Shown here in pieces: positions 7,992 through 59,640 of a stretch of DNA of 64,000 bases. Both the position numbers and the translations under genes were made by a program. The stretch's first letter is position 1. Every line of letters starts with the position of its first letter. The notes beneath the pieces were generated by a model that saw nothing but the letters and a program-made list of their open reading frames with translations, was not told the origin of the DNA and did not search any database. The stretch lies in assembly GCF_017356035.1 (NCBI RefSeq), contig NZ_JAFIQX010000008.1, positions 248,001 through 312,000 on the forward strand. Reading direction: 5' to 3'. This DNA is from Longitalea luteola (GTDB lineage Bacteria > Bacteroidota > Bacteroidia > Chitinophagales > Chitinophagaceae).

Positions 7992-8009
7992 CGTAGTTTA
8001 TTTACGATT

Positions 8010-28270: not shown

Positions 28271-29641
28271 TCAATACCTGAATATGGCGGCCAGCTCACC
28301 CTGCTCGGGCATTTGGTCCGCTTCCATAAAATACACTTCTCCGCCGTTCTGAATGGTTTTGATCACGGCTTTATCGATCAGGTCATCTACTTTATCAGAT
28401 TCCTGGTCTGCTATATCCAGCTTATTATCCTGCTCATTGAATGTTCCCCAGATCCGGCTGCCTTTTTTTACGAACAACTGGGAAACCCGTGAATAATAAG
28501 TAGCCGGTATGATTACACCAACGTTTGTAGACGTTAATTCAGTAGCTGACTTATTGCCATAATCTTCCAACGCCCGCCTTAATGGTTGTTCGAAATAAGG
28601 TTTCATCACCTCCATCGCTTCCTCATACAATTCATTGTCATTCTGTTGATGGTGATTACCAGTCAATGCTTCGGGCCAGATGTATTTATAATCGGATACA
28701 GACCGGTAAATAGGGATCAGGAAATCCTGTCCGGCCAAAAGTAACGGTACCGTTTCCCTGTTTAAATGGCTTTGCCAGATGGTATCGTCTACCTCTTCCA
28801 GGTAGAGGGCGATATTTTCTTTTTCATCCGGCCTGCCTGCTCCAATTCCATGAAAATTGGCACTACCAACGCCGCCTTTTCCGCCCGTTCTGAAAACTGC
28901 GTTATCGCCTTTCTCTTCGGTATGCACTACATCATCCACGCCACTTGGCAATTCTTCAACCTGCAGGTGTTCTATGCCTATTGCATCGGCACGATAAAAA
29001 CGGGGGAACTTCTTGGCAATATCGAGGATATAAAAATATTCGGGGCGAACCATGAACGGTACCAACGGGCTCACATAAAAAGATGTATTTACCCGAACAT
29101 GTTGTATCAATGGCGCCCGCAACTTTATAAACTTAAAGAAGCCATCGGCTATATATACCGCGAGGCCTTCATTCAGTGAACGCCAGAATTTGTCTTCGCG
29201 TAAAAGATCGTATCCGGGTTTCAGCATCCTTTTCGTAGTGATCGTTTCGGTGCCCTGCTCATTCAACATTTTTTCTGCCTGTTGTAAGGCCGATTTGAAC
29301 GCGGTCATATCAACCTGCTCATTCACTTCCACCCCTGCTTTATGGGTTGGCAACAGGATGCTTATGCATGGCGGCTGATCATAGCTTGCAAGCTCAATAA
29401 AGATATCCTTCGTAAGATCACCAACCAGTTCCTCTGGCTGCGTTTTCGTTACCTCTTCCGTATAAGTTGCATTTCTGCTTTTGTTGGCTGTTGCTTCTGT
29501 TTTGGAATAATCTTCACCCTTGCTGGTATTTCTGTTAGGGTGACGTACCGGCAGATCAGACGGGATTTCCGGCTCACTTTTATTGGCACCGGAAGGCTTC
29601 CCTTTGCCGGGATGAAACTTTCCTTCTCTATCTTTTCCCAT
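28271..29641 (-). CDS. Bacterial archaeo-eukaryotic release factor (baeRF) family protein
   Basis: This 456-aa protein has a disordered, charged N-terminus (1-65). An eRF1-like three-domain region then begins at ASYDQPPCISILLPTHKAG. In the middle domain there is GGKGGVGS (253-260) followed by NFHGIGAGRPDEKEN (262-276), at the position where archaeal/eukaryotic release factors carry the GGQ loop. VNTSFYVSPL and PLLLAGQDFLIPIY match the baeRF3/baeRF7-type families described by comparative genomics. They are proposed to act on stalled ribosomes or peptidyl-tRNA; no activity is proven. It is monocistronic. Confidence 0.75.
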   Translation of the reverse strand: MGKDREGKFHPGKGKPSGANKSEPEIPSDLPVRHPNRNTSKGEDYSKTEATANKSRNATYTEEVTKTQPEELVGDLTKDIFIELASYDQPPCISILLPTHKAGVEVNEQVDMTAFKSALQQAEKMLNEQGTETITTKRMLKPGYDLLREDKFWRSLNEGLAVYIADGFFKFIKLRAPLIQHVRVNTSFYVSPLVPFMVRPEYFYILDIAKKFPRFYRADAIGIEHLQVEELPSGVDDVVHTEEKGDNAVFRTGGKGGVGSANFHGIGAGRPDEKENIALYLEEVDDTIWQSHLNRETVPLLLAGQDFLIPIYRSVSDYKYIWPEALTGNHHQQNDNELYEEAMEVMKPYFEQPLRRALEDYGNKSATELTSTNVGVIIPATYYSRVSQLFVKKGSRIWGTFNEQDNKLDIADQESDKVDDLIDKAVIKTIQNGGEVYFMEADQMPEQGELAAIFRY

Positions 29642-29934: not shown

Positions 29935-30366
29935 TTAAAAACAGGGGTAAGCATAAACGGATGTCCAGCCGCTACCTACATAGCCGCTGCCATTATATAC
30001 GTCTACCGTAAGGCTGATAGAACTGCGGTCAGGATACGTTATCCAGTAATCCAGATAGGTGATAAAAGAACTGCTGCTGCCTACATAATGCGTAACAGGC
30101 GGTTCGGTTCCATTACCCGGCACCGTAAGGTACCATTCATAGGTGAACGGACCAGCAGCTCCACTCACACTTGCCGACCATACGCCCTGGTCGCACATAC
30201 TTAAACTGGAAGGACCACTGAGATCAACATTGGCGAGGGCAATGTTCTGCTGCGACCATTTTGAAACGGCAGCATGTTTTGCAGGTTGGGAAGGTACTGC
30301 CGGACGGAAGCTGCTGGTGATGAGCACGTGCAGCAATAAACAGACAAGCATTGTCATTTTTGTCAT
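29935..30366 (-). CDS. Secreted Ig-like hypothetical protein
   Basis: This 143-aa protein has a signal peptide (to about residue 24) and one beta-sandwich domain. That domain has GVWSASVSGAAGPFTYEWYL, ISLTVDVYNGSGY and a terminal VYAYPCF. The pattern resembles a single Ig/PKD-like repeat from large Bacteroidota surface proteins. Two cysteines (SMCDQ and the last PCF) may form a disulfide. It is 67 bases downstream of the DUF692 gene on the same strand and could be read through from it. Confidence 0.7.
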   Translation of the reverse strand: MTKMTMLVCLLLHVLITSSFRPAVPSQPAKHAAVSKWSQQNIALANVDLSGPSSLSMCDQGVWSASVSGAAGPFTYEWYLTVPGNGTEPPVTHYVGSSSSFITYLDYWITYPDRSSISLTVDVYNGSGYVGSGWTSVYAYPCF

Positions 30367-30433: not shown

Positions 30434-31564
30434 CTATACTTTCTTCTTCCACTTTCGCGCGATCTGCATAGCAGTCTCCAGCATGGCCGGATGCCACTGT
30501 TCCATATTCCACTCTGAATGTGCTAATGACGATTGATTCAATGCCGTTATCGCTTCGTTATAAGACATATCTGATTCGAGTATCTGCGACAGTTCTCTTT
30601 GCTGTTGATACAATTGGGCGTCTTCGACCGGCGGCTCGTTGCTTACGATATGAAATGGTAAAAAGTCGTTTTGTGCTTCGCCATTACGATGTTTGTTTTT
30701 GGCATCCAGCATATTTTCCATCTGCAAAAAATCCTGGTAGAACTGCTGCCGGCTGGCGGCCGTTTGCAGACCGGCACCCAGTTGTTCCAGCACCACGTAT
30801 TTACATTCCGGACAACGATCGATAGCCATATCAAGTAATGAAAACACTTCAGCAGGTACAGCATCATCATGCGTATCCCTGCGAATGCGGCGATCCGGCT
30901 CCGATTCCACCGGCTCCCAGCTGCCACCGGAAATATGGATCTCTCGCACCTTATCGAGCGGATACAAGCTCAGCAGATCTTCTGCACTTATTTGAAAGTT
31001 TTCCAGCTGACAGTATACGTTATGAAGATCGAGAATAATAAATCCATTTACCGGCTGAATGAGTTCATACAAAAAGTCACCATGCCGTTTCACCTCATCC
31101 ATAGAATAAGCAAAGGCAAGGTTCTCGAGGCCAACAGGACATAACGCAGCTTCCTGGATGCGCTTGAGGCGGTCACGGCCGATGCGCAAGGTGGTAGCAG
31201 AATAAGGAATAGCGAGTGGCGCTCCTTCATGGAAATCCTTGCCGGTCATGAATCCGAAATGTTCGGTAACCTGTTCCAACGGGAAACGCCGGGAAGTCGT
31301 GCGCAATGTTTCGAGCCATTGCGCCTGTTCGGGCAACCATTTACCGGAAAAAAGCGAAAAGAACACACCGTGACCGATGAGTCTTTTCGCATTGCTGTAA
31401 ACCTGTAATAAGCCTTCGAACCATGGCGGCAAAACGCCCCGGTCGAACAAAGCATCGAACGACCATTCGATAGCCTGTACCCTTTCCTCTTCGAACAAGG
31501 GATAGCAGGCATTGAGCATATCGATATCAAGATTACAGGCGGCTGTCGCAAGCAGCTTGGTCAT
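30434..31564 (-). CDS. DUF692 multinuclear iron-dependent oxidative enzyme (MNIO) with C-terminal extension
   Basis: This 376-aa protein is a TIM-barrel MNIO. The expected iron ligands are all present: H65 (GHGVFF), E101/H102 (TEHFGF), E147/N148 (GLENLA), D179/H181/N182 (LDLHNVY), H210 (IHISGG), D230/H232 (DTHDDA) and E260 (LEQLG). Characterised relatives (MbnB, TglH, ChrH) modify cysteines of ribosomal peptides. Residues about 290-376 form a helical extension beyond the normal ~280-aa barrel and may replace the separate partner protein (MbnC/TglI) that binds the peptide. The gene starts 11 bases after a 60-aa lipoprotein ending in CPACGMG, its likely substrate. Family confidence is high; the reaction is inferred. 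Confidence 0.88.
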   Translation of the reverse strand: MTKLLATAACNLDIDMLNACYPLFEEERVQAIEWSFDALFDRGVLPPWFEGLLQVYSNAKRLIGHGVFFSLFSGKWLPEQAQWLETLRTTSRRFPLEQVTEHFGFMTGKDFHEGAPLAIPYSATTLRIGRDRLKRIQEAALCPVGLENLAFAYSMDEVKRHGDFLYELIQPVNGFIILDLHNVYCQLENFQISAEDLLSLYPLDKVREIHISGGSWEPVESEPDRRIRRDTHDDAVPAEVFSLLDMAIDRCPECKYVVLEQLGAGLQTAASRQQFYQDFLQMENMLDAKNKHRNGEAQNDFLPFHIVSNEPPVEDAQLYQQQRELSQILESDMSYNEAITALNQSSLAHSEWNMEQWHPAMLETAMQIARKWKKKV

Positions 31565-31575
31565 ACAGGAAAATT

Positions 31576-31758
31576 TTAGCCCATTCCGCAGGCCGGGCAG
31601 TTATACGGAACAGTGGGTGGTTTGGGTTTGCCTTTGTCGTCATTCTCTTTATCCTGCTCTTCTTTTTTAGGCCCGTCCTTGTCCTTTGTACAGGACTGTA
31701 CACCCTGCAGCGTAATGCCCGTGAGCATTGCTGCCAATAAAGCTTTTGACAGTTTCAT
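31576..31758 (-). CDS. Putative RiPP precursor lipoprotein with C-terminal CPACGMG
   Basis: This 60-aa protein has a hydrophobic signal (residues 4-20), a lipobox-like GVQSC with C23, a charged linker of Lys/Glu/Asp (24-45), a proline-rich hinge (PKPPTVP) and a C-terminal YNCPACGMG with C54 and C57. It is directly upstream of the MNIO gene with an 11-base gap, the standard precursor-enzyme arrangement. The ATG at 31758 is preferred because it starts the signal peptide; the ATG at 31818 would add 20 unrelated residues. The CxxC could be the modified core, a metal site, or both. The precursor role is inferred. Confidence 0.75.
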   Translation of the reverse strand: MKLSKALLAAMLTGITLQGVQSCTKDKDGPKKEEQDKENDDKGKPKPPTVPYNCPACGMG

Positions 31759-38956: not shown

Positions 38957-41356
38957 TCACAAACTAAACTGAACGGTGAAGTAGCCATTCCGCTTATCTG
39001 CCGGTATAATGCCAGGTCCGGGATAACCATCAGCCCGCCGCGTAAAATAGCTTTCATCAGCCAGGTTATTGATACCAGTGTAAAAGGCCAGGCTTCTCCA
39101 TTTATAACTTATACTCAGATCCAGAACGCTGAATGCAGGAATTGCTCCGTCCACCGCTGTTGGAGTGCTTTCGGTATTGGTGGCGTCGGAATACTGTTTG
39201 CCCTGGTAAGCATACTGCAAAGAAATGTTGAAATGCGGATCAGCAAAGCTAATGCCGCTTCTGAACACAACGGGTGGAACGTTCTCTACCAGCTTGTCAG
39301 CAATAGCCGTGTTCTTCGTATTGATGTACCTGGCATCAATAAGTGAAAAGCTCGTGTACACATTTAATTTATACTTCGATCCTGATCGCGCCGCTTTCAG
39401 TAGATCCCCATCGAGCAGGATCTCAGTGCCTATGTTGCGGCTGTCGCTTACGTTTGTACGTAACCTGTAGGTCATAAAGCTGGTATCGCGGGTAAAAACA
39501 GAGCCTATACGATTATTGTATTTCAACAGGAACACACTGATATCGGCATACAGCCATCCTTTAAAGTTGCCCCTGAACCCGGCGTCGACATTATAGCCAT
39601 CTTCATCTTTCAAGGCAGGATCTACTTTCGCATTGGCATTCACAACACGTAGATCATTAAAATTAATTGAGCGGTAATTCTGTGAAATGTTTGCATAGAG
39701 CTCCGTGCCGTTGGTAAACTTCCAGGAGCTGCCCACACCCAGCAAAACAAAGGAACGTGGATTCGATTTGTCTTCCAGGATCTTTTCGTCGGCAATGAAA
39801 ATATTCCGCTTGTAATAATAGCCATTAGCCTTTGTATTGATATGCTCAAGACGAATCCCGGGCGTAATACTCCAGCGGGGCGTTATCCTGAATACATTTT
39901 CGGCAAAAAACGCCAGGTTGTTACCAGGGAAACGGTAAGATGAAGCATCCGGTTCTTCGCCCTCAAAGTCAAAATCGGCGCCGCTGCCATCATTGCCCCT
40001 ACCCTGCTTACGATCGGTCAATCCCTTATACCATCTGGCGCCTGCCAGGAAGGTGTTTTGCCTGTGCAGGAAGCCATAATCATGCATGAAGCGCAGTTCT
40101 GAAGCATAGTTGTTATAGTTGTCGGATAACAGATCGCGGTTACCCCCATTGTCAGGACGGTTGATATAAGTTAGCATACCCAATGCATCGCGGCCGCCCT
40201 GTAAAGTATAATTACGCCAGTTAATGCGCGTATGTTCATTGAACTGGTAATCGAATACCAGGCTGATCAGGTTCCATTTTACGGCAAACCAGTTACGGGC
40301 CCTTACTGAAACGGAAGCATCTTCCCTGAACTGTTCATCGGTTAATCCACCCGGCTGCTGCGCCAGGTATTTCATCAGCGTGTACTCACCTGTTACTTTA
40401 AATCGCGGTGTGACTTTATACGCCAGATGAATATATGCATTGTGCTGATCGTAGTGACTGTTAGGCCGCCAGCTATCGCCTTTTTTATACTGGTAAAAAG
40501 TATAATAATTCAGTTTGTCGTTTGCAAGCGTACCACCGGCACTGTTAAAAGAATTGAAGAAGCCGAATGAACCAATGGTTTGCCGGGTAGTAAACCGCAG
40601 CTTTTCGTGCCTGGGTCCTTCCTTCATGACAAAATTCACGAGCCCGCCGAACTGCGGACCGTATTGCAGACTGGCAGCACCGCGCACGATCTCGATCCTG
40701 TCTACCGCTTCTGTGGATGGTGTATAATAACTTTCCGGATAACCGAGTGCATCTGCACTGATATCATAGCCATTCTGGCGAATATTGAAATTCGATGACC
40801 GGTTCGGACTAAGTCCGCGGCCACCGATGCCTAACTGCAATCCCCCATGATCGTATTCCCAGATATTCAATCCGGGTATGCGGGCGTAGATCTGCCGGGT
40901 ATTATTGGTGGCCAGGTTGGCATTGATATTTTTCAGATTGATCAGTTCCGTTTTCTTGCCGGCATAGATGGCTGTTCCGGAAATATCCTGCAGTTTACCG
41001 GAGATCTGCTCTCCTTTTCTGCCGGCGACAATTACGTTCTCCAGGCTGGAAGCTTCTGCCGGAGATAAACGGATGTGCAGGGTTTCGTTAGCACCGGTAA
41101 TATGAACACGGATCGTTTGTGTGGCATACCCCACATAGGAGATCTTCAATTCATATATCCCCGTATCTAATTTGGCGAACCGGAAAAAGCCATGCTCATT
41201 GGTCATTCGTTGTACACCCTGCGGCAACAACACAACCGTGGCCTGTTCTGCCGGCTCATGGCGAAAACTAACGGTTCCGCTTAGGCTGAATGAACGTTGC
41301 GCCATAGTAGTCAACATACAGACCATACCAATAAGGATACTTGACATTTTTTTCAT
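38957..41356 (-). CDS. TonB-dependent outer-membrane receptor (FecA-like) with CarboxypepD_reg-like domain
   Basis: This 799-aa protein has a signal peptide (to about residue 19) and an N-terminal CarboxypepD_reg-like domain with VQRMTNEHGFFRFAKL and YELKISYVGYAT. A plug domain with YARIPGLNIWEYDHGG, GGRGLSPNRSSNFNIRQNGYDI (split) and RIEIVRGAASLQYGPQFGG follows, then a 22-strand-type barrel ending in FTVQFSL. The plug resembles ferric-citrate/siderophore receptors. It is the last gene of the DUF4856-imelysin-HTTM operon, starting one base after the HTTM stop. Iron-complex uptake is inferred. Confidence 0.9.
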   Translation of the reverse strand: MKKMSSILIGMVCMLTTMAQRSFSLSGTVSFRHEPAEQATVVLLPQGVQRMTNEHGFFRFAKLDTGIYELKISYVGYATQTIRVHITGANETLHIRLSPAEASSLENVIVAGRKGEQISGKLQDISGTAIYAGKKTELINLKNINANLATNNTRQIYARIPGLNIWEYDHGGLQLGIGGRGLSPNRSSNFNIRQNGYDISADALGYPESYYTPSTEAVDRIEIVRGAASLQYGPQFGGLVNFVMKEGPRHEKLRFTTRQTIGSFGFFNSFNSAGGTLANDKLNYYTFYQYKKGDSWRPNSHYDQHNAYIHLAYKVTPRFKVTGEYTLMKYLAQQPGGLTDEQFREDASVSVRARNWFAVKWNLISLVFDYQFNEHTRINWRNYTLQGGRDALGMLTYINRPDNGGNRDLLSDNYNNYASELRFMHDYGFLHRQNTFLAGARWYKGLTDRKQGRGNDGSGADFDFEGEEPDASSYRFPGNNLAFFAENVFRITPRWSITPGIRLEHINTKANGYYYKRNIFIADEKILEDKSNPRSFVLLGVGSSWKFTNGTELYANISQNYRSINFNDLRVVNANAKVDPALKDEDGYNVDAGFRGNFKGWLYADISVFLLKYNNRIGSVFTRDTSFMTYRLRTNVSDSRNIGTEILLDGDLLKAARSGSKYKLNVYTSFSLIDARYINTKNTAIADKLVENVPPVVFRSGISFADPHFNISLQYAYQGKQYSDATNTESTPTAVDGAIPAFSVLDLSISYKWRSLAFYTGINNLADESYFTRRADGYPGPGIIPADKRNGYFTVQFSL

Positions 41357-41357
41357 T

Positions 41358-42698
41358 TCAGTTTGCTGCTTTATACGGTAATATCCAATGATAATGTTTC
41401 CAGCTGAAGGGCTCTGCTGCCAGGTTCACACTGGAATCTATGAACAGGCGCGAACCTGCGCCATTAAGGGTTACATATATTTCTCCATATACCCGCGGTT
41501 GGGTGACGCCTCTTTTCGCATAAGTGCTGGCGAGGAAGTGGGCGTACCGCAGGATCAGATCCGGCTGCGTGCTCATCATTTTCTCCTGCAAGGGGGTAAG
41601 AAATTCAGCATTGTTTACCTCGTAAAATTGTTTTCCGGCCCTATCCTTTATTTTAAAATAAGCGGCCCCTGCTTTTTCCATCAACATTACCCGCCAGGAA
41701 AAACGGTACCCCTCTTCATTCCAGAATAAACGGTCGGGATATAACAGAAAACGGCATGGGATGAAACATTGAAGGATTACATACCCCCCCATTATTGCAT
41801 ACAGCGCTTTTTTATAAGTAAACGCATAAGGGGTTGATAGCTCAGCTTCCACTTTTTTACCAGTGAGGAAAAACAATAACCGCTGATGGAATGAACCGGA
41901 AAAAAAGACCAGGCTGCTAACGATCATCACATAGGGAAACAAACCGATGCCGGGAAAGAAGATGGACGTAGCGAGATGAAAGATCAATACAAATCCATAC
42001 CCCCACCACCTTGTTCTTTTGTTCAGTAAAAAAAATACGATCAATAAATCATACAATGCCCCGAACCACGAGAACAGGTAAGCCACCCATTCGTTGTACA
42101 TGAATGCGCCTACAATGGGTAAATGGCTTTTTGCCGGCAACCAGGTTTTCATGGGTTGCGCATCGATCAGCCAGTCGGGGTTCAGCTTGGCCAGTCCGGC
42201 AAAAAAATAAACCACGCCCAACTGAAAGCGTATGAGGCCGATCGTCCACGCAGGCACCAACGACCGCCTGCGGCCTGGTTTTATCAAAACATCCAGCGAA
42301 TACAGGCGGTTAGCCGGTAACCAGATCATGATGAAGGCAACCAGGCTTATAAAGTAATAATGGTTGAGGTAAGTGGTAACATCTATCAGTTCTACATAGG
42401 TGAAGCAAATGAAGAACAGCACCGAAGCCACGCGGTATAAAAATCCGGCTGCGATCATCAATGCAGTAAGGGCTATGATGGAAAATAGCAGGTACATGCC
42501 TGGCTTACCCAACGGTTGAACCCATTCGAATCCCCAGTAGGTAAAATGAAAGGTGGGCGAAACATATACCGTATCTACCCAGCCGCGCCACCAGAATCGG
42601 AGCGTACTGACAAACATGAGCAGTCCGAACGCTATCCTGAAGGTGATAAGCGGTGCTATAGAGACTGGTTTCTCCCAGGCCTGCCTGTTAATCGCCAT
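41358..42698 (-). CDS. HTTM-domain (vitamin-K-dependent-carboxylase-like) membrane protein
   Basis: The product of about 446 aa has several hydrophobic helices and the HTTM-domain features RIAFGLLMFVSTLRFW and FQLGVVYFFAGLAKLNPDWL. Eukaryotic relatives carboxylate glutamates using vitamin K; bacterial HTTM functions are mostly unknown. The ATG at 42698 overlaps the imelysin stop by 11 bases, so it is translationally coupled. Its place between imelysin and a TonB receptor suggests a role in maturing or energising iron uptake, which is an inference. Confidence 0.85.
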   Translation of the reverse strand: MAINRQAWEKPVSIAPLITFRIAFGLLMFVSTLRFWWRGWVDTVYVSPTFHFTYWGFEWVQPLGKPGMYLLFSIIALTALMIAAGFLYRVASVLFFICFTYVELIDVTTYLNHYYFISLVAFIMIWLPANRLYSLDVLIKPGRRRSLVPAWTIGLIRFQLGVVYFFAGLAKLNPDWLIDAQPMKTWLPAKSHLPIVGAFMYNEWVAYLFSWFGALYDLLIVFFLLNKRTRWWGYGFVLIFHLATSIFFPGIGLFPYVMIVSSLVFFSGSFHQRLLFFLTGKKVEAELSTPYAFTYKKALYAIMGGYVILQCFIPCRFLLYPDRLFWNEEGYRFSWRVMLMEKAGAAYFKIKDRAGKQFYEVNNAEFLTPLQEKMMSTQPDLILRYAHFLASTYAKRGVTQPRVYGEIYVTLNGAGSRLFIDSSVNLAAEPFSWKHYHWILPYKAAN

Positions 42699-43812
42699 CA
42701 TTGTCCATAAATGTAATTTGAACACCTGTAGCCGATGCCAGATCTGTTTTTATCAATGTGAGCAGCTTCTGGATCTCTTTATATGCTTCCTCTACTTTCG
42801 CAGGCTGCGCCGTGATCGTCGTTGATAACGGATCCGGCAAAGCTTCGAGTTTGGTTATAACCAGGTCAAACTGGGCAGTTAGCTGATTGGCCAGGTCTTC
42901 CCTGTTAAGGCTTTTGAGATAATCAGCAAATCCTTTTCCGCTTCCGTTGGCAGTAAAGATCTTTTTCAGGTTGCGCATACTTTCCTGGGCAAGGGCCGCT
43001 GCATTACCGGCAAAAAAAGCTTCTACCTTAGCAGGAAAAGCAATTCCATTCGATTGTTTGCCGAATGGCCAGCCGATCCGCGGCCCTTTCAAAACATCCA
43101 GGTCGTAAGCCATCCCATTGATCATATTTCCAATAGGGCTTCCGACATTGGTTTTTGTATTACTTACGAATTCAGTACGGTAGGCTGTCCAGTCGATATT
43201 GATCTTATCAACCAGCGTTTTTATTCGGTTAACGACATCTTTCGCATATTTAACCCGGCTGACGGTATTACTGTTGAACTTTTGTATGGCGTTCGGACCA
43301 AAGAACAGGTAATTGATCGCAGCAAAGCCCTGCGCATAAAAAGAGTTGCGCACATACTGGGTAAGATCGTAATTGCCTGAACTGATATTGTTCTCGATTG
43401 TAGTGCTGTCAATGGAGAACCCAACCAATTCGCCATTGGTGGCAAAATTATAATCGATGCCTCCGTTATAATTCAGATATACCTCCAGTCCGGCCACTAC
43501 TGCCGGACCCAGGTTATAGGCTTCTACCCGCGTGTATTGCAGGTGTAATTGTTTATAACCCTCCAGCAAACCCTGCTGGTTAGCCGTATTCCTGGTCTCG
43601 AGAAATGTATTGGCGAGCGCCTGGAAATTATTCACTTTTTCCTGCAGCAAGGCATAAGCAGGAATGATCAATTGATCGGCATAATTGGTAAGCATGCCGG
43701 TTTTATCGAAGCCCTTGTCGTTTCCGTCGCCTTCGCCATCTGCTGACTTATTGCAAAAAACACCGGTTGTTAACGCCAAAACAGCCAGGGATCTCAATAT
43801 TGTTCTTTTCAT
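42688..43812 (-). CDS. Imelysin-family (IrpA-like) lipoprotein with degenerate GxHxxE motif
   Basis: This 374-aa protein has a signal peptide ending near VFCNK and two imelysin-type helical bundles (VEAYNLGPAVVAGLEVY, QESMRNLKKIF). The family motif GxHxxE, normally just before the YLLFG strand, reads GFAAINYLFFG here, so both the His and the Glu are missing. Imelysins are periplasmic iron-linked proteins. This copy may bind differently or serve a structural role. It is 80 bases after the DUF4856 gene. Confidence 0.82.
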   Translation of the reverse strand: MKRTILRSLAVLALTTGVFCNKSADGEGDGNDKGFDKTGMLTNYADQLIIPAYALLQEKVNNFQALANTFLETRNTANQQGLLEGYKQLHLQYTRVEAYNLGPAVVAGLEVYLNYNGGIDYNFATNGELVGFSIDSTTIENNISSGNYDLTQYVRNSFYAQGFAAINYLFFGPNAIQKFNSNTVSRVKYAKDVVNRIKTLVDKINIDWTAYRTEFVSNTKTNVGSPIGNMINGMAYDLDVLKGPRIGWPFGKQSNGIAFPAKVEAFFAGNAAALAQESMRNLKKIFTANGSGKGFADYLKSLNREDLANQLTAQFDLVITKLEALPDPLSTTITAQPAKVEEAYKEIQKLLTLIKTDLASATGVQITFMDNDGD

Positions 43813-43844
43813 CTGACATAGTTGTGGGGTGTAAAAAATGAGTA

Positions 43845-43868
43845 AACTCCCGGCAGGTACCGGGAGTT
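43845..43868 (-). terminator. Intra-operon hairpin between DUF4856 and imelysin genes
   Basis: AACTCCCGG and CCGGGAGTT form a perfect 9-bp stem with a 6-base loop. On the minus strand TTTACTCATTTTTTAC follows. It could partly terminate after the first gene, lowering expression of the rest, or protect the upstream mRNA end. Confidence 0.55.
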
Positions 43869-43891
43869 ATAGTTATCAATCAATTAATAAA

Positions 43892-44995
43892 TTATGGTTG
43901 CAGCTGGCCATAAGCAGAAGTCAGTATCTGTTGGGCCTGTTTCAATTTGGTGAAGCTGGCATCGTTGATGAGTGCATAAGCATTTTGCGTGGGGCCCAGC
44001 AGATCAACGAGGGCTTGATAATTGGAAGCGCTCAATTTACTGTTCGAAGCCCGGTAGTTTAAAGCGATGATAAAACCTCTGCCTTCAGACAGTTCATGCA
44101 ACTGATCAGATTTAACGGTCTTGCCCTGTGGACTGGTTACATAATAATAACAGGCTGCAGCCAGTGCTTTTTCTAAAAAATCTTTAATGGTAGCGGCAGC
44201 TGCATCGCGGGCCTGGTAATCTTTTGCGGCAATCGCAGCACGGCCTTTGCGGAATGCTTCGAAAACGGTGTGGCCTGCTTTGATGTATTTACCTCTTTCA
44301 GCAAAATAGCCGCCTACAGCAAGCGGCCTGTTAACATCGGTGCTTGCATAAGATCTTGATGAATCGTAATCTGTGGGAATGCCTACATATCCGAATGCCA
44401 TATCCCATTCATGCTGCATAGCGGTGCCTTTGCCGGGCGTTACCGTATTGTTATCTGCATTGGCAGCGGCATCTAGATGCTGGATCACTTTTGATAATAC
44501 CAGCGCCCCCATCATACCCTTGGCAACAAGCTGATTGAATTCTACACCCGAATGATTAAAAACCCGGCTCCCTTGTTTACCCGGTTTACCTTCAGAACCA
44601 GGTGTATTATAGAACTGGCTGATTTTTACCATAGAGTCGGCCAATGCCTTTATAATGGGCGCATCGGTCGTTTTTGACGCCAGGTTGAATCCTGAAGTAT
44701 TTAACTGTTGTGGGGTGTTAGGCAGGTTATTTATAAATTCAGCTGTAAACGCATTGTTCGTATTGTTCCATAAATAATTTACGGTATCCTGGCTAAGCTG
44801 CCTGGTAGCGCCCCGGCCGAGGTAAAATTGAAATCCCTGCCACATATTTATGGAGGCAGTAGCTTCGGCGAATTCAACATTGTCGAAACTGTATGTAGCC
44901 GGAATAGTATAAGAAGGGGCGCCATTGTCTTTATCGCAGGAAGTAATAAATAAGGAGCATGCAATTGCAGTTAGTGTTGGTATGCTTTTCTTCAT
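43892..44995 (-). CDS. DUF4856-family (imelysin-like) lipoprotein
   Basis: This 367-aa protein has a lipobox FITSC near residue 20, then SFDNVEFAEATASINMW, KISQFYNTPGSEGKPGKQGSR and HEWDMAFGYVGIP. This composition matches the DUF4856 family, which sits beside imelysin genes in many Bacteroidota. The His/Glu in QHEWDMAFGY is the closest thing to a metal site. It is the first gene of the four-gene operon. The function is unknown; iron or other metal uptake is the best guess. Confidence 0.82.
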   Translation of the reverse strand: MKKSIPTLTAIACSLFITSCDKDNGAPSYTIPATYSFDNVEFAEATASINMWQGFQFYLGRGATRQLSQDTVNYLWNNTNNAFTAEFINNLPNTPQQLNTSGFNLASKTTDAPIIKALADSMVKISQFYNTPGSEGKPGKQGSRVFNHSGVEFNQLVAKGMMGALVLSKVIQHLDAAANADNNTVTPGKGTAMQHEWDMAFGYVGIPTDYDSSRSYASTDVNRPLAVGGYFAERGKYIKAGHTVFEAFRKGRAAIAAKDYQARDAAAATIKDFLEKALAAACYYYVTSPQGKTVKSDQLHELSEGRGFIIALNYRASNSKLSASNYQALVDLLGPTQNAYALINDASFTKLKQAQQILTSAYGQLQP

Positions 44996-52665: not shown

Positions 52666-54255
52666 CTAATAAAGATCATTCTGTTCCATCATGGGATTGG
52701 CCAGTATTTCGCGCTGCGGGATAGGCCAGCGGAAATCTCGTGCTTCATTACAGGATCTTGCTTCTACTTTCACCGGTTCATTGGTGGCAGGGTCAACAGC
52801 TCCGTATACCTGTCCATTCATCACGGTGCCCAATATACCCCAGCGGCGGATGTCATAAAAGCGTCCCCCTTCAAATGCCAGTTCCGATTGGCGTTCACGG
52901 CGCACCAGTTCGCGCAGCTTTTCCTGGGTATTATATACAGTCACATTCACTGGCGGCATGGTGGCGCGCTCGCGAATCTCGTTTAAATACTTCACTACAT
53001 CGGGATGATGATGCTGCTCCAGTTCTATCAACGCTTCTACATAGTTGAGCAATATTTCCGCGTAGCGGATGATCATGTAGTCGAGTGTGCGGGTGCCCGT
53101 GCGGTCTTTGGGATCGAGGTATTTCTTCACCCAAAAACCTGTAGCCGTGGCATTTTGCGCCCCCAGCCGGTCGAGATTGGTTTGCGATGCATCAAAAGGC
53201 TTCAATACATAAGATGAAAAAGTTTGCCCCGGTAACATTACGGAAGCGAGCAGCCGCGGATCGCGGTTGTTCCTGTAATTGGGATCTCGCTGATAGATAG
53301 CAGCAGAATCCGGGCCCAGCTCCCAGATCGTTTTTCCCTGTTTGGTCTCATAGTTGTTCACTACTGCTGCTGTAGGTGAAAGAACCGTTTTTCCGCCTAC
53401 ACCCATCGGCGCAAAGGTGAGCCATTGCTGGCCGCTGGTGTTCTCTCTGAAGAAGATCCTTTCTTTATTCAATTCGCCGGTATACAGGAACAGATCGGCA
53501 TAACTGTTCCTTGGGTTGGAAGCCGTTTTATATAATTCATACACGCCAAGGTCGATCACTTTTTTTGCAGCGTCCCTGGCCACCTCGTATTTTTTGTAGA
53601 ACAAGGCAAGCCGGCTGATCAGCGACCAGCAGGCGCCGGCCGAAATTCTTTTCATGTCGGCATTCACATAAACGGCAGGCAGGTTATTAGCGCAGTCGGT
53701 CAGTTCGCTTACAATAAAATCGTACACCTCCGATTCTGTATTTCTTTCCAGGTAACTGTTTGCAGGTGTAACCGAGGTCGTTACGATGGGAATACCGCCA
53801 AAGAATAGCAGCAGCTCCATATGATAATAAGCCCGCAATGCCCTTGCTTCATACTTGTAACGGAACTTCAGCGAGTCATCCATAAAACAACGGTCCACAT
53901 TTTCCAAAAAGCGGCAGGCCCGGCGGATATCTTTAAAATCATCTTCCCAGATACCGGCGCCTACGTTCCAGGTAGGGTTATGTAATCCTTTTACATAAGA
54001 TTCATAATCGCCGCGGGTACTTTGCCGCGCTACAGCTTCATCGCTCAATGCAGATAAAAACATTAATTGTCTGCCTGAAGAACCGTCGGGAATGCCAACA
54101 TACACTGAGTTCAATGCATTGGTAGCATCGGCGGAAGTGTTCCACCATTCTGCATCCGATATGCTGGTGGGATGATCGTGCTCCAGGTATTTTTTACAGC
54201 CGGAAAGCAGTATAGCACCGGCAACAATCGATATAATTAAAGTAAGGTGTTTCAT
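52666..54255 (-). CDS. SusD/RagB family nutrient-binding lipoprotein
   Basis: This 529-aa protein has a lipobox SGC near residue 18 and the SusD signatures EARALRAYYHMELLLFFGGIP, RLALFYKKYEVARDAAKKV and the C-terminal RRERQSELAFEGGRFYDIRRW, each shown in part. It sits on the cell surface on top of the SusC pore and binds the glycan. The ATG at 54255 starts the signal peptide; the frame is open further upstream. It is 11 bases after susC. Confidence 0.95.
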   Translation of the reverse strand: MKHLTLIISIVAGAILLSGCKKYLEHDHPTSISDAEWWNTSADATNALNSVYVGIPDGSSGRQLMFLSALSDEAVARQSTRGDYESYVKGLHNPTWNVGAGIWEDDFKDIRRACRFLENVDRCFMDDSLKFRYKYEARALRAYYHMELLLFFGGIPIVTTSVTPANSYLERNTESEVYDFIVSELTDCANNLPAVYVNADMKRISAGACWSLISRLALFYKKYEVARDAAKKVIDLGVYELYKTASNPRNSYADLFLYTGELNKERIFFRENTSGQQWLTFAPMGVGGKTVLSPTAAVVNNYETKQGKTIWELGPDSAAIYQRDPNYRNNRDPRLLASVMLPGQTFSSYVLKPFDASQTNLDRLGAQNATATGFWVKKYLDPKDRTGTRTLDYMIIRYAEILLNYVEALIELEQHHHPDVVKYLNEIRERATMPPVNVTVYNTQEKLRELVRRERQSELAFEGGRFYDIRRWGILGTVMNGQVYGAVDPATNEPVKVEARSCNEARDFRWPIPQREILANPMMEQNDLY

Positions 54256-54266
54256 GTTGTGGCGAA

Positions 54267-57200
54267 TTAAAATTGAATGTTGCATCCTAAAGTGTAGGTT
54301 TTCATAATACCATATGTCCACTGGTTGCCCCGGCTTTCCGGATCGGTTAATTTAAGCCGCGTAAAAGTGAACGGATTCTGGGCATTGAAGTAAAGCCGCA
54401 TAGAGTTAATGCCTGTACGCTTTATTAATGGTGATGTAAGGTCAAAGCCGAGCTGGATGAATTTTACGCGCAGGTAGGCGCCATTCTGGAACCAGAAATC
54501 TGACGATAATTTGTTATTGGCAGGCGCTGTCGACAACCGGGGAAAACGCGCATCGGTCCTTTCAGGCGTCCAGTAATTGGCTGCATAGTATGTTGTAGGT
54601 ACGCCGCCATCTTTGCTAAGGTCCAATGGCAGGGCAAACATATCGAGCAATACTGCATCACTTTTGCCAGTGCCCTGTATCAGGAATTCCAGGTCTATCT
54701 TCCTGTAGGAAATCCTGAAATTGGAGAAGTAGTTTATTTGCGGAACCGGATTACCGATAACTGTTTGGTCCTTTGCATTGATCTCACCATCTTCACTCAG
54801 ATCAAGGTATTTGATATCGCCGGGCGCAGCATTGGGTAAAACGGGCACCACCGCTTTGCCGGAATTATCAAAATCGGTTTCCTGTAACAAGCCATCTGTC
54901 TTATAACCATACAAACTACCTATAGGGCTGCCCAACTGATCGATGGTAGTGCCCGCTGCATTTATATACGGACCAGCCACGAGGTTCAGGATGGTATTGG
55001 TATTGTATGAAAATCCCGGGCGTACGGAGATGTTTATATTCCTTCCTGCCTTAGCATTATAATTCATTGATAGTTCCCACCCTTTGTTCTGCACCTTGCC
55101 GGCATTCACCGGCACTTCGCCTTCAAAACCACCCACGAGCGGCAACGAGGGATTCAAGATAATGTCGTTGGTTATCTTATCATAATAATCAAAAGTCATT
55201 TCCAGTTTACCATTAAACAAACCAATGTCTGCACCTGCATCCATCATATGCACTGTTTCCCAGGTGATATTTGGATTGCCATACGTAGACTCTACACCGT
55301 TTGTCGCGCTCACGAGGGTCTGGTATTTATACAAGCCAATATTCTCATTGCCTAAGTAACCGTAAGAAGCCCTTAATTTCAGGTTATTGATAAAACCAAC
55401 GTCTTTAAGGAAGTTCTCATTGTGCATATTCCAGCCAACGGCCACTGAAGGGAAGTAACCGAACCTGTTATTGGGACTGAACCGGGAAGAGCCGTCTGCC
55501 CGTATGGTTCCTTCAATAAGGTATTTGTTCTGGTAAGAATAGTTCAGCTTGGCATAACCAGACATCAAAGACGAAACATCCCAATCGTTTGAATTGGTCT
55601 CTTCCTGTGAATAACCGGCCATGGCAAAGATCATGTGGTCGCCGAAACTGACGGTATAATCGGCATTAGCGCCCAGGTAATAGTAAGTACCCCGCTTGGA
55701 TGACACGGCCCTTTGCATTGACCAGGTTTGCAGCAGCTGCCCGGTGTAATAATCAAAGAAGTTGTAAGTATTGCGGGTATCCCGGTTAATGTCGCTGTTT
55801 AACCGGAAACTGAATTGTCCCCGTACGTTTAAACCCGGCAGCACTCTCCATTTCGGCTGCAGGTTAATACTGGTTTGTCCACTCTCAAATTTGCGCTCCC
55901 CGCCTTTTTCGGCGTAAGCCACCGGGTTAACAATATCTACATAGCGGCCGTAAATCGTTCTTCCGTCTACTTCCGGATACTTCGGCAATATGGTTGGCGG
56001 CACCCGGTAAATATCTTCCAGCAAACGGTTACCATTTCCGCCTACTGACCGGTTAGGGGTAAGGGTGTTTCTTTTAATGGCCAGCATATCGAGATTGATG
56101 ACAAAGTTCTTACTAAGCGTAACCGAAGTGTTGGCCCTGATATTGAACCGTGTAGAATTGTTTACCGGCAGCATCCCTTTCTGATACAGGTAGTTGCCTG
56201 TTAAAGCAAAGCGGGCCACGTTGTTTCCGCCACTTACTGAAAGCGTATGGCTTGTAATAGGCGCCCTTTTATCGATCACTTCATCGATCCAGTTGGTATT
56301 GGGATACCTGACGGGGTCGGTACCTGCGATCGTGTTTTCAATATCACTATCCGAAAAAGAAGGCTGTTTACCGGCATTCACCTGCGCTTCGTTGTACATG
56401 CGCATATATTCCGGGGCGTTGACCACATCGGGCAGGCTGGCGGGCGTTTGTATGCCCACATAACCATCATAGGTAACAGCCACTTTGCCGGGAATACCTC
56501 TTTTTGTGGTAACGACAATTACGCCATTGGCGGCCCTGGCGCCATAAATGGCGGCAGCGGCAGCATCTTTTAACACGGTAACGCTTTGTACGGTTACTGG
56601 ATCGATGTGGTTCATGTCCATAGGAATGCCGTCTACCAGAACAAGCGGATCCGAATCACCCAAAGTACTGATCCCTCTGATCTTGATCGCGGCAGCATCC
56701 CCGCCCGGCAAACCGGAATTTTGGGTAACCTGCAGGCCGGTAACACCGCCCTGCAAACTTTGTGATAATGTAGTAATGGGTTTCCCGGTAATATTCGATG
56801 CAACATTCAATGTGGCCACCGAACTGGCTATATGTTTCTTTTTTTGTTCCGAAAGGCCTACCACCACGATCTGCTCCAGGTCGTTCACATCCTCTTTCAT
56901 CGAAATGGTAAGGGCATTATCGCTTTTCGTAAGCGTGTACTCAACCGGTTTGAAACTAATTCTTGAAAAAACAAGCACATCGTATTTGTTAGCCCTGATA
57001 CTAAAGTAGCCGTCTGCATCTGTGATAGTGCTTACAGTAGTTCCTTTGATAGTCACCGTAACGCCCGCCAAAGCAACGGGTGGTTCATGGGTATCGTACA
57101 CCCGCCCCCGTACTGACAATAAGGTATCGCGTTGTTTGGTGGCGACAGCCTCTTCTCTGGGCGTAATAACGATCTGCCGGCCGCTGATGGTATAGGTTAA

Positions 57201-57518
57201 ACCGGTGTCATGCAGCGCCATTTTCAATACATCTGCAACCGGTACGCTCTTTACATTAAGATCAACCGTCTTTTTCATTTGCCGGTTCAATAGCTTGTCG
57301 CGGTAAAAAATAAGATAATCCGTTTGCTTTTGTATCTCCTCAAATAATTCAGGTAATGAGGCATGCTTAAGATGGAGGTTTACCCGGGTGTTTTGAGAAT
57401 AGGTTTTACCCGAAACACTCAGCATACCGATGAACAATAGAAAAACCGTAAACTTGATCTTTAAAAATAGCAGGTTGGTATGCCCCTGTTCGGGACATTT
57501 GCAGCAATTCATTTTCAT
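54267..57518 (-). CDS. SusC/RagA TonB-linked outer-membrane transporter with STN domain
   Basis: This 1083-aa protein has a long N-terminal signal and an STN domain (about 50-115) with FEEIQKQTDYLIFYRD, the mark of FecR/sigma-regulated receptors. A carboxypeptidase-like domain with GVTVTIKGT and ADGYFSIRA follows. A plug with VVVGLSEQKKKHIASS, IRGISTLGDSDPLVLVDG and AAIYGARAANGVIVVTTK (SusC motif) leads into a large barrel. It imports a glycan or peptide bound by SusD. The STN domain links it to the FecR and sigma genes upstream. Confidence 0.95.
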   Translation of the reverse strand: MKMNCCKCPEQGHTNLLFLKIKFTVFLLFIGMLSVSGKTYSQNTRVNLHLKHASLPELFEEIQKQTDYLIFYRDKLLNRQMKKTVDLNVKSVPVADVLKMALHDTGLTYTISGRQIVITPREEAVATKQRDTLLSVRGRVYDTHEPPVALAGVTVTIKGTTVSTITDADGYFSIRANKYDVLVFSRISFKPVEYTLTKSDNALTISMKEDVNDLEQIVVVGLSEQKKKHIASSVATLNVASNITGKPITTLSQSLQGGVTGLQVTQNSGLPGGDAAAIKIRGISTLGDSDPLVLVDGIPMDMNHIDPVTVQSVTVLKDAAAAAIYGARAANGVIVVTTKRGIPGKVAVTYDGYVGIQTPASLPDVVNAPEYMRMYNEAQVNAGKQPSFSDSDIENTIAGTDPVRYPNTNWIDEVIDKRAPITSHTLSVSGGNNVARFALTGNYLYQKGMLPVNNSTRFNIRANTSVTLSKNFVINLDMLAIKRNTLTPNRSVGGNGNRLLEDIYRVPPTILPKYPEVDGRTIYGRYVDIVNPVAYAEKGGERKFESGQTSINLQPKWRVLPGLNVRGQFSFRLNSDINRDTRNTYNFFDYYTGQLLQTWSMQRAVSSKRGTYYYLGANADYTVSFGDHMIFAMAGYSQEETNSNDWDVSSLMSGYAKLNYSYQNKYLIEGTIRADGSSRFSPNNRFGYFPSVAVGWNMHNENFLKDVGFINNLKLRASYGYLGNENIGLYKYQTLVSATNGVESTYGNPNITWETVHMMDAGADIGLFNGKLEMTFDYYDKITNDIILNPSLPLVGGFEGEVPVNAGKVQNKGWELSMNYNAKAGRNINISVRPGFSYNTNTILNLVAGPYINAAGTTIDQLGSPIGSLYGYKTDGLLQETDFDNSGKAVVPVLPNAAPGDIKYLDLSEDGEINAKDQTVIGNPVPQINYFSNFRISYRKIDLEFLIQGTGKSDAVLLDMFALPLDLSKDGGVPTTYYAANYWTPERTDARFPRLSTAPANNKLSSDFWFQNGAYLRVKFIQLGFDLTSPLIKRTGINSMRLYFNAQNPFTFTRLKLTDPESRGNQWTYGIMKTYTLGCNIQF

Positions 57519-57552
57519 ACTTCAGCGGTTAGTTAATAATTGGTTGTGTCTT

Positions 57553-58755
57553 TTATTTTTTCAAAGCCAGTTTCTGTTCTTTTGGTAAATACATATATGG
57601 AGTGCCAAGGCACAGCAGGTTCATAATATCTTCGATGTTGCTTTGCAGGTCGAGCCTGCCGGAAAATGTTTCATCAGTATGAGCAAGCACGTTCGTATTT
57701 ATGTTTGCATCGTAATACCTCGAAACGCGTTTTATAATTTGTTGCAATGACGTTTGCCTGAACAGCAGGTACCCTTTCCTCCACGAGACATATTCATCCG
57801 TATTGACACTGACAACAGTGATCCCTTCTGCACCCGGCCCAAAGCTAGCCATGTTACCAGGTATCAGCCGTTTTGTAAGCATTCCCGCATGGCCTTTAGC
57901 GCTTACACCAACACTCCCTTTCACCAGCACCACATTGCTTTGTTCGTCATCATCGTAAGCGCTTACATTAAAACTGGTGCCTAACACATTTACCGACATA
58001 TTATTGGTACGCACCGTAAAAGGCCTGCCGGCATCGTGCTTTACATCGAAAAAGGCCTCACCGGTAAGCTGAACAGCCCTTTCATGGCTGCCAAAAGAAG
58101 TAGGATATTTTAAGGAAGAAGCGGTATTCAGCCACACCATGGAACCATCTGCAAGCATCACCTGCACCATTTTAATGCCCCGTGGAACTGTTAATGTGTG
58201 ATAAGTAATTTCAGCGTTGCTGTGCGAAGATGTATCATAGTATGCAATGCGGCTATCGGCCAGCTTAATAACATTGATGTTATTGTTACTGATGACTGTA
58301 TCTTTTCCTGCATTGCTGATCTCTATTTGTTCGCCATTGGCGAGTGTTATATATGCGCCTGTCTTTTTGGATATCGTTGTTTGTACAGGGGGTGCCGTAT
58401 TCCTGACCACCTCTTTCACCGGCGCTTTTTTCTGCAGGAAAAACCAGCCGGCACCCAGTGAGAGTATAAGTATGGCAGCCGCTGCCACTCTAAAAAATAA
58501 CCGCTGATAGAACCTGGTAACAGGCGGTTGAACGGATTGCATCAAACGATTGCGTAACCTGACGCTGATGGCTACAGGCAGTTCGTCCCTATTTTCCATT
58601 GCTGCAATGAATTCGGCCTGTAACAGCTGCAATACCACCCGGTTAGCGGCGTCCTGTTGAAGCAATCGCATCAGTTCTTCTACCTGCTGTGGCGTGCAGG
58701 CATTATTTAGGTAATCAGTTACAAGCTGTCTGAAGTGTTCGTTAGATCCCGGCAT
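57553..58755 (-). CDS. FecR-family anti-sigma factor
   Basis: This 400-aa protein has an N-terminal cytoplasmic region with NNACTPQQVEELMRLL, a membrane helix (about 89-108), the FecR core LTVPRGIKMVQVMLADGSMVWLN and the C-terminal STN-like YLLFRQTSLQQIIKRVSRYYD. It transmits the state of the SusC receptor to the sigma factor encoded upstream. It is 34 bases before susC, after a 103-base gap from the sigma gene. Confidence 0.95.
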   Translation of the reverse strand: MPGSNEHFRQLVTDYLNNACTPQQVEELMRLLQQDAANRVVLQLLQAEFIAAMENRDELPVAISVRLRNRLMQSVQPPVTRFYQRLFFRVAAAAILILSLGAGWFFLQKKAPVKEVVRNTAPPVQTTISKKTGAYITLANGEQIEISNAGKDTVISNNNINVIKLADSRIAYYDTSSHSNAEITYHTLTVPRGIKMVQVMLADGSMVWLNTASSLKYPTSFGSHERAVQLTGEAFFDVKHDAGRPFTVRTNNMSVNVLGTSFNVSAYDDDEQSNVVLVKGSVGVSAKGHAGMLTKRLIPGNMASFGPGAEGITVVSVNTDEYVSWRKGYLLFRQTSLQQIIKRVSRYYDANINTNVLAHTDETFSGRLDLQSNIEDIMNLLCLGTPYMYLPKEQKLALKK

Positions 58756-58858
58756 AAACAGTATTTGGCTGCGTTGTATATATAATATCCCCGGATGCGA
58801 ATTAAGGGTGGGTGGTTGTAAAGAAAAATGAAATTATTTTTTTTGCGAGGTATGATAA

Positions 58859-59488
58859 TCAGATCTGACTGACGAAAGCTGCAGGAATATCTGTAAGAAA
58901 AAATAACAAAAACATAAAATGGGTAGGCGTATCGCCACATTGATCAACGTGTTCTCTTATCAGTTTCATGGCTAATATCATATGTTCTTTTACCGTATTA
59001 CGTGAAATGCCGAGCTCTTCAGCCACCTGTTCATAGGTCTTCCCATCTTCCCGGCAGAGCCTGAACACTTTCTGGCGCTGTGGAGGCAAACGGTTGATCG
59101 CAGCCTGTAAGATTTCCTCATATTGTTGCCATAAAACTTTCAGATCAGCGTCCGCAACCGATTGCGTAAACTGCTGCATAACCTGTAGCCGCAGGTGTTC
59201 GTCTACAGCAATCTTCTTTAACAGCTTGAAAACACTGTTGCGGCAGATCCGGTACAGATAGGCTTTGAAAGAAAGCGCAGGATCGATGCGGCTTCTGATC
59301 TCCCAGATCTTCAGAAATACGTCTTGCAGCACATCTTCGGCAATGGCAGGCGATTTAACAAAGCGAAGAACAAAATGATAAAGGGCAGGATGGTAATGAT
59401 TGTACAATTCCAGGAAGGCATCACTATCCCCTTTTTGTAATCTTAGTAGTACACTTTGTTCGTAATATGTATCGGGTGTTGCAGCCAC
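58859..59488 (-). CDS. ECF RNA polymerase sigma-70 factor
   Basis: The product of about 209 aa has region 2 (YNHYHPALYHFVLRFVK, DVLQDVFLKIWEIR) and region 4 with LPPQRQKVFRLCREDGKTYEQVAEELGIS. It should drive the fecR-susCD operon. The start is unclear: the frame opens at 59623 (TTG) and has an ATG at 59572. The GTG at 59488 gives the usual length, and a TTTG-N17-TTATTTTG promoter lies at 59503-59531, which would fall inside longer versions. The C-terminus ends in a hydrophobic stretch (HFMFLLFFLTDIPAAF), unusual for a sigma factor. Confidence 0.9.
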   Translation of the reverse strand: MAATPDTYYEQSVLLRLQKGDSDAFLELYNHYHPALYHFVLRFVKSPAIAEDVLQDVFLKIWEIRSRIDPALSFKAYLYRICRNSVFKLLKKIAVDEHLRLQVMQQFTQSVADADLKVLWQQYEEILQAAINRLPPQRQKVFRLCREDGKTYEQVAEELGISRNTVKEHMILAMKLIREHVDQCGDTPTHFMFLLFFLTDIPAAFVSQI

Positions 59489-59502
59489 TTTCTTAAAGAG
59501 CC

Positions 59503-59531
59503 CAAAATAAGTAATTTGATCGAAATTCAAA
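59503..59531 (-). promoter_or_regulatory. Candidate promoter of the sigma factor gene
   Basis: On the minus strand TTTG (59528-59531) and TTATTTTG (59503-59510, one mismatch to TAnnTTTG) are 17 bases apart. The expected start site falls just before the GTG at 59488. Confidence 0.4.
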
Positions 59532-59640
59532 GGGGCCGGCGTTTTCGTGAATATGGAGTAAATTGCACCCATATTAAGCAACTGGCTGCGATTTACATTT
59601 TGAGACAGGGTAATATTATTCAAACAAAAGATTGATTCAG

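Follow-up and report, generated by a model that had tools for sequence, protein, structure and literature searches.

The 64,000-nucleotide stretch of Longitalea luteola DNA analysed here (the window) carries two adjacent genes that very probably form a DAG-RiPP unit of the DybAH/ChsAH type, with modification, export and lipidation as in its homologues; we place the probability of this reading at roughly 0.9. It draws on family models for both proteins, the predicted fold of the enzyme, the recurrence of the pair in relatives with no shared partner, and the mass change caused by a homologous pair. The unit consists of a precursor gene followed by an MNIO gene, each starting with ATG, with exactly 11 bases between the precursor stop and the MNIO start. 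An earlier reading of the sequence alone (the original prediction) had proposed a 60-residue lipoprotein-type precursor ending in CPACGMG and lying 11 bases before an MNIO, and both open reading frames and the gap were verified. The coordinates of the features are collected in Table 1.

Table 1. Positions in the window of the two genes and of their predicted parts.
Feature	Positions	Strand	Basis
Precursor peptide, 60 aa, chryseobasin-related (DybA/ChsA) type	31576..31758	-	Open reading frame; NF050125, 70.5 bits (cut-off 40)
Predicted lipoprotein-type signal peptide through the lipobox Cys (residues 1-23), with conserved block M-[KN]-[LIV]-[SP]-K-x-L-L-x-A-[IM]-x-x-G	31690..31758	-	Sequence, conservation
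C-terminal CPACGMG (residues 54-60), predicted macrocycle and hydantoin site	31579..31599	-	Sequence; chemistry from excerpts of PMC12636315
MNIO maturase, 376 aa, DybH/ChsH-like, ChrH subfamily	30434..31564	-	NF050165, PF05114, alignment, predicted fold
Predicted TIM-barrel domain (about residues 1-292) with nine ligand residues	30689..31564	-	Alignment, predicted fold, Foldseek
Predicted C-terminal helices (residues 316-372), extra domain of the ChrH subfamily	30449..30619	-	Predicted fold; domain described in excerpts of PMC12636315

The precursor has a lipoprotein-type signal with C23, then a charged, proline-rich linker, and then the CPACGMG end; C23, C54 and C57 lie in the translated frame where they had been predicted. 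The NCBIfam model NF050125 ('chryseobasin-related MNIO class RiPP peptide') matched it over residues 1-60, above cut-off, while the bufferin models gave no match in NCBIfam at E values up to 1. One feature that counts against the DAG-RiPP reading is the glutamine at −2 of the lipobox stretch, VQSC, a residue that is probably unusual there. A DNA pattern for CPxCGxG followed by a stop matched once in the organism's own genome, at the precursor gene, but the backward control pattern also matched once, so the pattern alone is no proof. As that sole match was this gene, further substrates elsewhere in the genome were rejected, within the limits of a pattern that misses variant endings.

The enzyme scored 102 bits against PF05114 (Pfam; cut-off 25). 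Its best NCBIfam model by far was NF050165 (MNIO_ChrH; E 3.5e-112), with 375 bits, against 86 and 69 bits for the BufB and HvfB models. Because 375 bits is below the curated NF050165 cut-off of 600, a point that also weighs against the DAG-RiPP reading, the enzyme was rejected as a ChrH equivalog, that is, as chryseobasin proper, and was filed as a relative. An assignment to the bufferin BufB type was rejected as well, with 86 bits against the cut-off of 310 for NF050167.

The nine residues named as iron ligands in the original prediction (H65, E101, H102, E147, D179, H210, D230, H232 and E260) were all present, and all were invariant among 44 aligned MNIO sequences, including two enzymes above the MNIO_ChrH cut-off that are 38-39% identical to this one. 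The fold predicted from the MNIO alignment (mean pLDDT 89.9, pTM 0.91) has a TIM-barrel run of strands, with the nine ligand residues in or beside strand ends, followed by three more helices from residue 316 (316-330, 335-343 and 359-372). These predicted helices are a mark of the ChrH subfamily that the original prediction did not mention. In a Foldseek search with the model the top ranks, and thus the nearest solved folds, were TglHI and MbnB/MbnABC entries; a profile search of PDB sequences found two, 8hci and 3bww. With the barrel and its ligands, the C-terminal helices and an adjoining CPxCGxG-ended precursor all found, sequence and fold model place the predicted maturase in the ChrH/DybH subfamily.

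Relatives of the MNIO were sought in named genomes; 213 were found, and the best 80 loci were retained. In all of these 80 (the best 80 of 213), a precursor ending in CxxC[GS]xG lay within 1 kb upstream of the MNIO and was encoded by the same strand, which bears out the predicted co-occurrence of CPACGMG-type peptides with DUF692 genes. Among the same best 80 of 213, an ORF ending in CPxCG lay close upstream of the MNIO at 75 loci, and the endings at the remaining five were CLACGMG, CGPCGMG, CPACSMG, CIACGMG and CLSCGMG. CPACGMG itself ends 57 of the 91 precursors from the 80 loci and the window. Since two family models match and the same pair recurs in 80/80 of these best-scoring relatives, the pair is more than a chance arrangement. 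The original picture of a minimal MNIO–RiPP pair, with a lipoprotein precursor and a CxxC at its extreme C-terminus, thus agrees with family models and relatives alike, and the motif is modified in homologues (PMC12636315, cited from excerpts, as are all papers given here by accession).

Some loci depart from the simple arrangement. More than one precursor was found at 10 of the 80, with a maximum of three at L065, where three tandem precursors, ending 67, 341 and 618 bases before position 8001, precede one MNIO. The farthest of these, which lacks a lipobox cysteine, ends in CPPCGRG; a single enzyme may therefore serve both lipidated and soluble substrates there. L090 is another locus with several precursors; its nearest one touches the MNIO match and was counted in the CPxCG tally, but is absent from the set of 91. 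At L087 a further short ORF ending in CPACGRG, about 1395 bases before position 8001 and well upstream of the adjacent precursor, was left out of the precursor set. The ChrH-like MNIO match at L121 (310.8 bits) has one TGA inside the matched stretch and is perhaps a decayed copy.

The organism's own genome has one PF05114 match. A close relative of the MNIO occurs in three of ten genomes of the genus, its own included; the two same-genus matches are 78 and 80% identical to it, as are the nearest named relatives, from Niastella vici and N. caeni. Across the family, 15/147 genomes have a PF05114 match of any kind and 7/147 have an NF050125 match above cut-off, so the pair is patchy. Some MNIO match was present in 231 plasmid records; in a single one of them, a Hymenobacter plasmid, it covered 80% or more of the query.

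The flanks of 81 loci were compared using ORFs of at least 90 aa (BLAST E 1e-10, half coverage), several loci being cut by contig ends. No family except MNIO was common to more than 13 of the 81; the most shared cluster after MNIO, at 13 loci, consists of long proteins. Within the window, a 143-aa secreted-looking protein (29935-30366, reverse strand) is encoded 67 bases downstream of the MNIO gene and in the same direction; it gave no Pfam match, and at the BLAST threshold the flanks of the 80 loci contained no relative of it. Beyond it, the protein encoded at 28271-29641 on the same strand scores 133 bits against the bacterial archaeo-eukaryotic release factor family 7. Farther away, consecutive genes at 38957-44995 (reverse strand) look like those of a TonB-dependent receptor, of a multi-pass membrane protein and of two secreted proteins or lipoproteins; the row presumably resembles an iron-uptake (imelysin-type) cluster. 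A run of SusD-like, SusC-like, FecR-like and sigma-factor-like genes, also assigned by look, lies at 52666-59623 (reverse strand), about 21 kb from the pair. Promoter and terminator predictions were at the level of shuffled sequence, and an Rfam scan of the window gave nothing above gathering scores.

Minimal pairs of this kind were described in non-Chryseobacterium Bacteroidota by Chen et al. (bioRxiv preprint, November 2025; PMC12636315), so the pair is not of a new kind. The excerpts of that preprint report co-expression of pairs from Dyadobacter, Chitinophaga sancti and Hymenobacter, among others, with CPACGMG (CPGCGLG in Hymenobacter) undergoing a −4 Da change in DybA, ChsA and HymA; the change in the C. 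sancti pair is part of the case for the DAG-RiPP reading. The product structure was established for DybA and for methylated ChrA. The DybA product contains a thioether macrocycle and a hydantoin, and the alpha carbon of the former cysteine bears a free thiol; DybA is tri-acylated via the lipoprotein pathway in E. coli. According to the same excerpts these minimal clusters have no obvious partner protein, and the functional leads offered for DybA-type products are a resemblance to the B ring of lantibiotics and the presence of SusCD neighbours.

The pair described here resembles DybAH of Dyadobacter crusticola and ChsAH of C. sancti in its two-gene layout, its lipoprotein signal with the invariant lipobox Cys, its C-terminal CPACGMG, the (here predicted) C-terminal helices of its MNIO and the lack of an obvious partner nearby. 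It differs in host genus; its MNIO is 56-65% identical to aligned Chitinophaga and Dyadobacter relatives other than DybH and ChsH themselves. The parent system, the S-methylated chryseobasin of Chryseobacterium (ChrAHI; PMC10214503), shares the CPACGMG motif and a homologous MNIO, at the 38-39% identity noted above for the two enzymes above the MNIO_ChrH cut-off, and chryseobasin enzymes form a separate MNIO sequence cluster (PMC12452194). ChrA, however, has a signal peptidase I signal and an S-methylated product (+10 Da), whereas the precursor here is of the lipoprotein type (PMC10214503, PMC12636315). The chryseobasin cluster also has ChrI (DUF1772), ChrE and ChrP (PMC10214503), whereas no DUF1772 match was found with Pfam among the eight proteins between 28271 and 35875. 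Bufferins and oxazolins are likewise MNIO-modified exported cysteine peptides, some of them lipidated, but differ in precursor motifs, partner proteins and products.

By analogy with these homologues, the cytoplasmic MNIO would bind the precursor at its C-terminal CPACGMG and carry out a four-electron oxidation that uses iron and oxygen. A bond from the C54 sulfur to what was the beta carbon of C57 would close a macrocycle. The C57 carbonyl would shift to a place between two amide nitrogens, those of G58 and M59, forming a hydantoin, and a free thiol would be left on the former C57 alpha carbon, for a net change of −4 Da. The Sec and lipoprotein pathways would then lipidate C23 and cleave the signal peptide, and the lipidated peptide would be delivered to the outer membrane, perhaps to its surface. 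That this gene pair makes the same modification, and each step of localisation, we infer from the characterised pairs. The predicted surface exposure is plausible, because the residues after C23 are TKDKD, which is near, although not identical, to the Capnocytophaga surface-export signal C-X-K-(D/E)2-X (PMC5080379), and because such residues are enriched in the precursors: 28/79 precursors have K[DE] with its K in position +2 or +3, against 12/80 controls, and 42/79 have at least two acidic residues between +2 and +6, against 10/80.

The signal peptide is more conserved than in the few divergence-matched lipoproteins compared. Within these Bacteroidota loci it is not relaxed, while N-termini differ across the whole subfamily. 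With one precursor per locus (n = 79), K5 was found in 73, L7 in 70, L8 in 72, A10 in 73 and G14 in 69. At L7 and L8 the residue is retained although each of the six leucine codons is used, which places the conservation at the protein level. The pattern M.[LIV][SP]..[LVI][LI].[ATS] matched 85/88 precursors, but 0/80 of the other lipoprotein-like ORFs at these loci and 0/13 BamD-type proteins. The 88 are what remained of the 91 after the lipobox expression missed L067, L083 and the lipobox-less L065 precursor. BamD-type controls, picked by PF13525 and not by orthology, came from 13/30 loci in this count and, with a looser picking rule, from 39/59 in the identity comparison.

At 0.55-0.60 identity of the body (for the precursors, of the MNIO), leader identity was 0.52 (1417 pairs) and that of the spacer 0.20, compared with 0.32 for BamD-type signals (9 pairs) and 0.35 for other lipoprotein signals (16 pairs), where pairs are not independent and matched control pairs are few. 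At 0.60-0.65 the values were 0.58 for the leader, 0.22 for the spacer, 0.40 for BamD-type (2 pairs) and 0.33 for other lipoproteins (10 pairs). At 0.75-0.90 the leader, at 0.87, exceeded BamD-type signals (0.59, 9 pairs) but did not differ from other lipoproteins (0.88, 3 pairs). BamD-type signals at the lowest identities were at about 0.29, near the floor of the identity measure. The block was rejected as an independent tag, since as a DNA pattern it gave 18 matches in 17/144 genomes, of which 6 were precursors and the rest unrelated or short ORFs; the backward control gave 4 matches, and the own genome 1. The 24 chryseobasin-type loci yielded 23 ChrA precursors without a lipobox Cys, which begin MK[IV]P and then carry [LVI] in position 7, M in position 8, S or G in position 10 and L in position 11; this start, conserved within their own group, partly resembles the block. 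We did not find the conservation remarked on in the excerpts of the literature examined, although the sequence logos of PMC12636315 and PMC10214503 may show it.

Such conservation suggests a second recognition or sorting element in the sequence of the leader. As an addition to the DAG-RiPP reading, the block might dock on a membrane partner or on the MNIO itself, where the C-terminal helices are a candidate site, and docking would favour modification of CPACGMG before export; we regard this as possible, at clearly less than even odds. A cytosolic MNIO acting on a soon-exported precursor implies that something should favour modification before export, and a leader so used would do so. The near-restriction of the block to precursors, the excess of leader identity over matched signals at 0.55-0.60, and the retention of both leucines argue for it. 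The partly similar start of ChrA can be read both ways, being shared by precursors without a lipobox but lacking K5, L8, A10 and G14. The case for docking is further weakened by the small number of matched pairs, by the equal conservation of other lipoproteins at 0.75-0.90 and by the unrelated ORFs that match the DNA pattern. DybH, moreover, modifies GFP-CPACGMG without a leader (PMC12636315, in excerpt), so the leader is not essential. A stronger version, in which the signal peptide doubles as a RiPP leader whose conserved hydrophobic helix (K5, L7, L8, A10, I/M11, G14) is recognised, ahead of export or in its course, by the MNIO or by a membrane partner, making recognition bipartite and coupling maturation to secretion, is a little less probable again and must be called unlikely.

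The same conservation data would also fit a signal peptide that serves export or a job after cleavage, and not the MNIO, as in a sorting route like that of the YSIRK signals of staphylococci, or as a released peptide signal. A10-xxx-G14 is also a small-xxx-small pattern. Patterns of this kind are common in membrane helix packing. We nevertheless consider this more doubtful than either form of leader recognition, given the partly similar start in precursors that lack a lipobox and an h-region slightly more hydrophobic than in controls (mean Kyte-Doolittle 2.47, n = 79, against 2.04, n = 80), which argues against a weak, slow signal; slow export through weak hydrophobicity was rejected on the same values. 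The membrane-anchored copper-binding or redox CxxC centre at the surface, as originally predicted, is very improbable: methanobactins, bufferins and oxazolins, of other MNIO subfamilies, do bind copper, a lipidated oxazolin was made and a free thiol remains in the DybA product, but that product is without an aromatic thiooxazole-like group and has one cysteine sulfur in a thioether (PMC12636315, in excerpt), and no copper-related gene was recognisable with Pfam among six neighbouring proteins.

For the DAG-RiPP reading we therefore lean towards a biological role in the envelope rather than in metal binding. The pair itself is an ordinary addition to the RiPP-lipoprotein class characterised in 2025, and the part of it worth following up is the conservation of the leader. 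Should the signal peptide prove to be a hidden leader, the published account, in which recognition depends on the C-terminal seven residues, would be incomplete. A Sec signal would then serve in RiPP recognition, and this would help to explain how modification outruns export.
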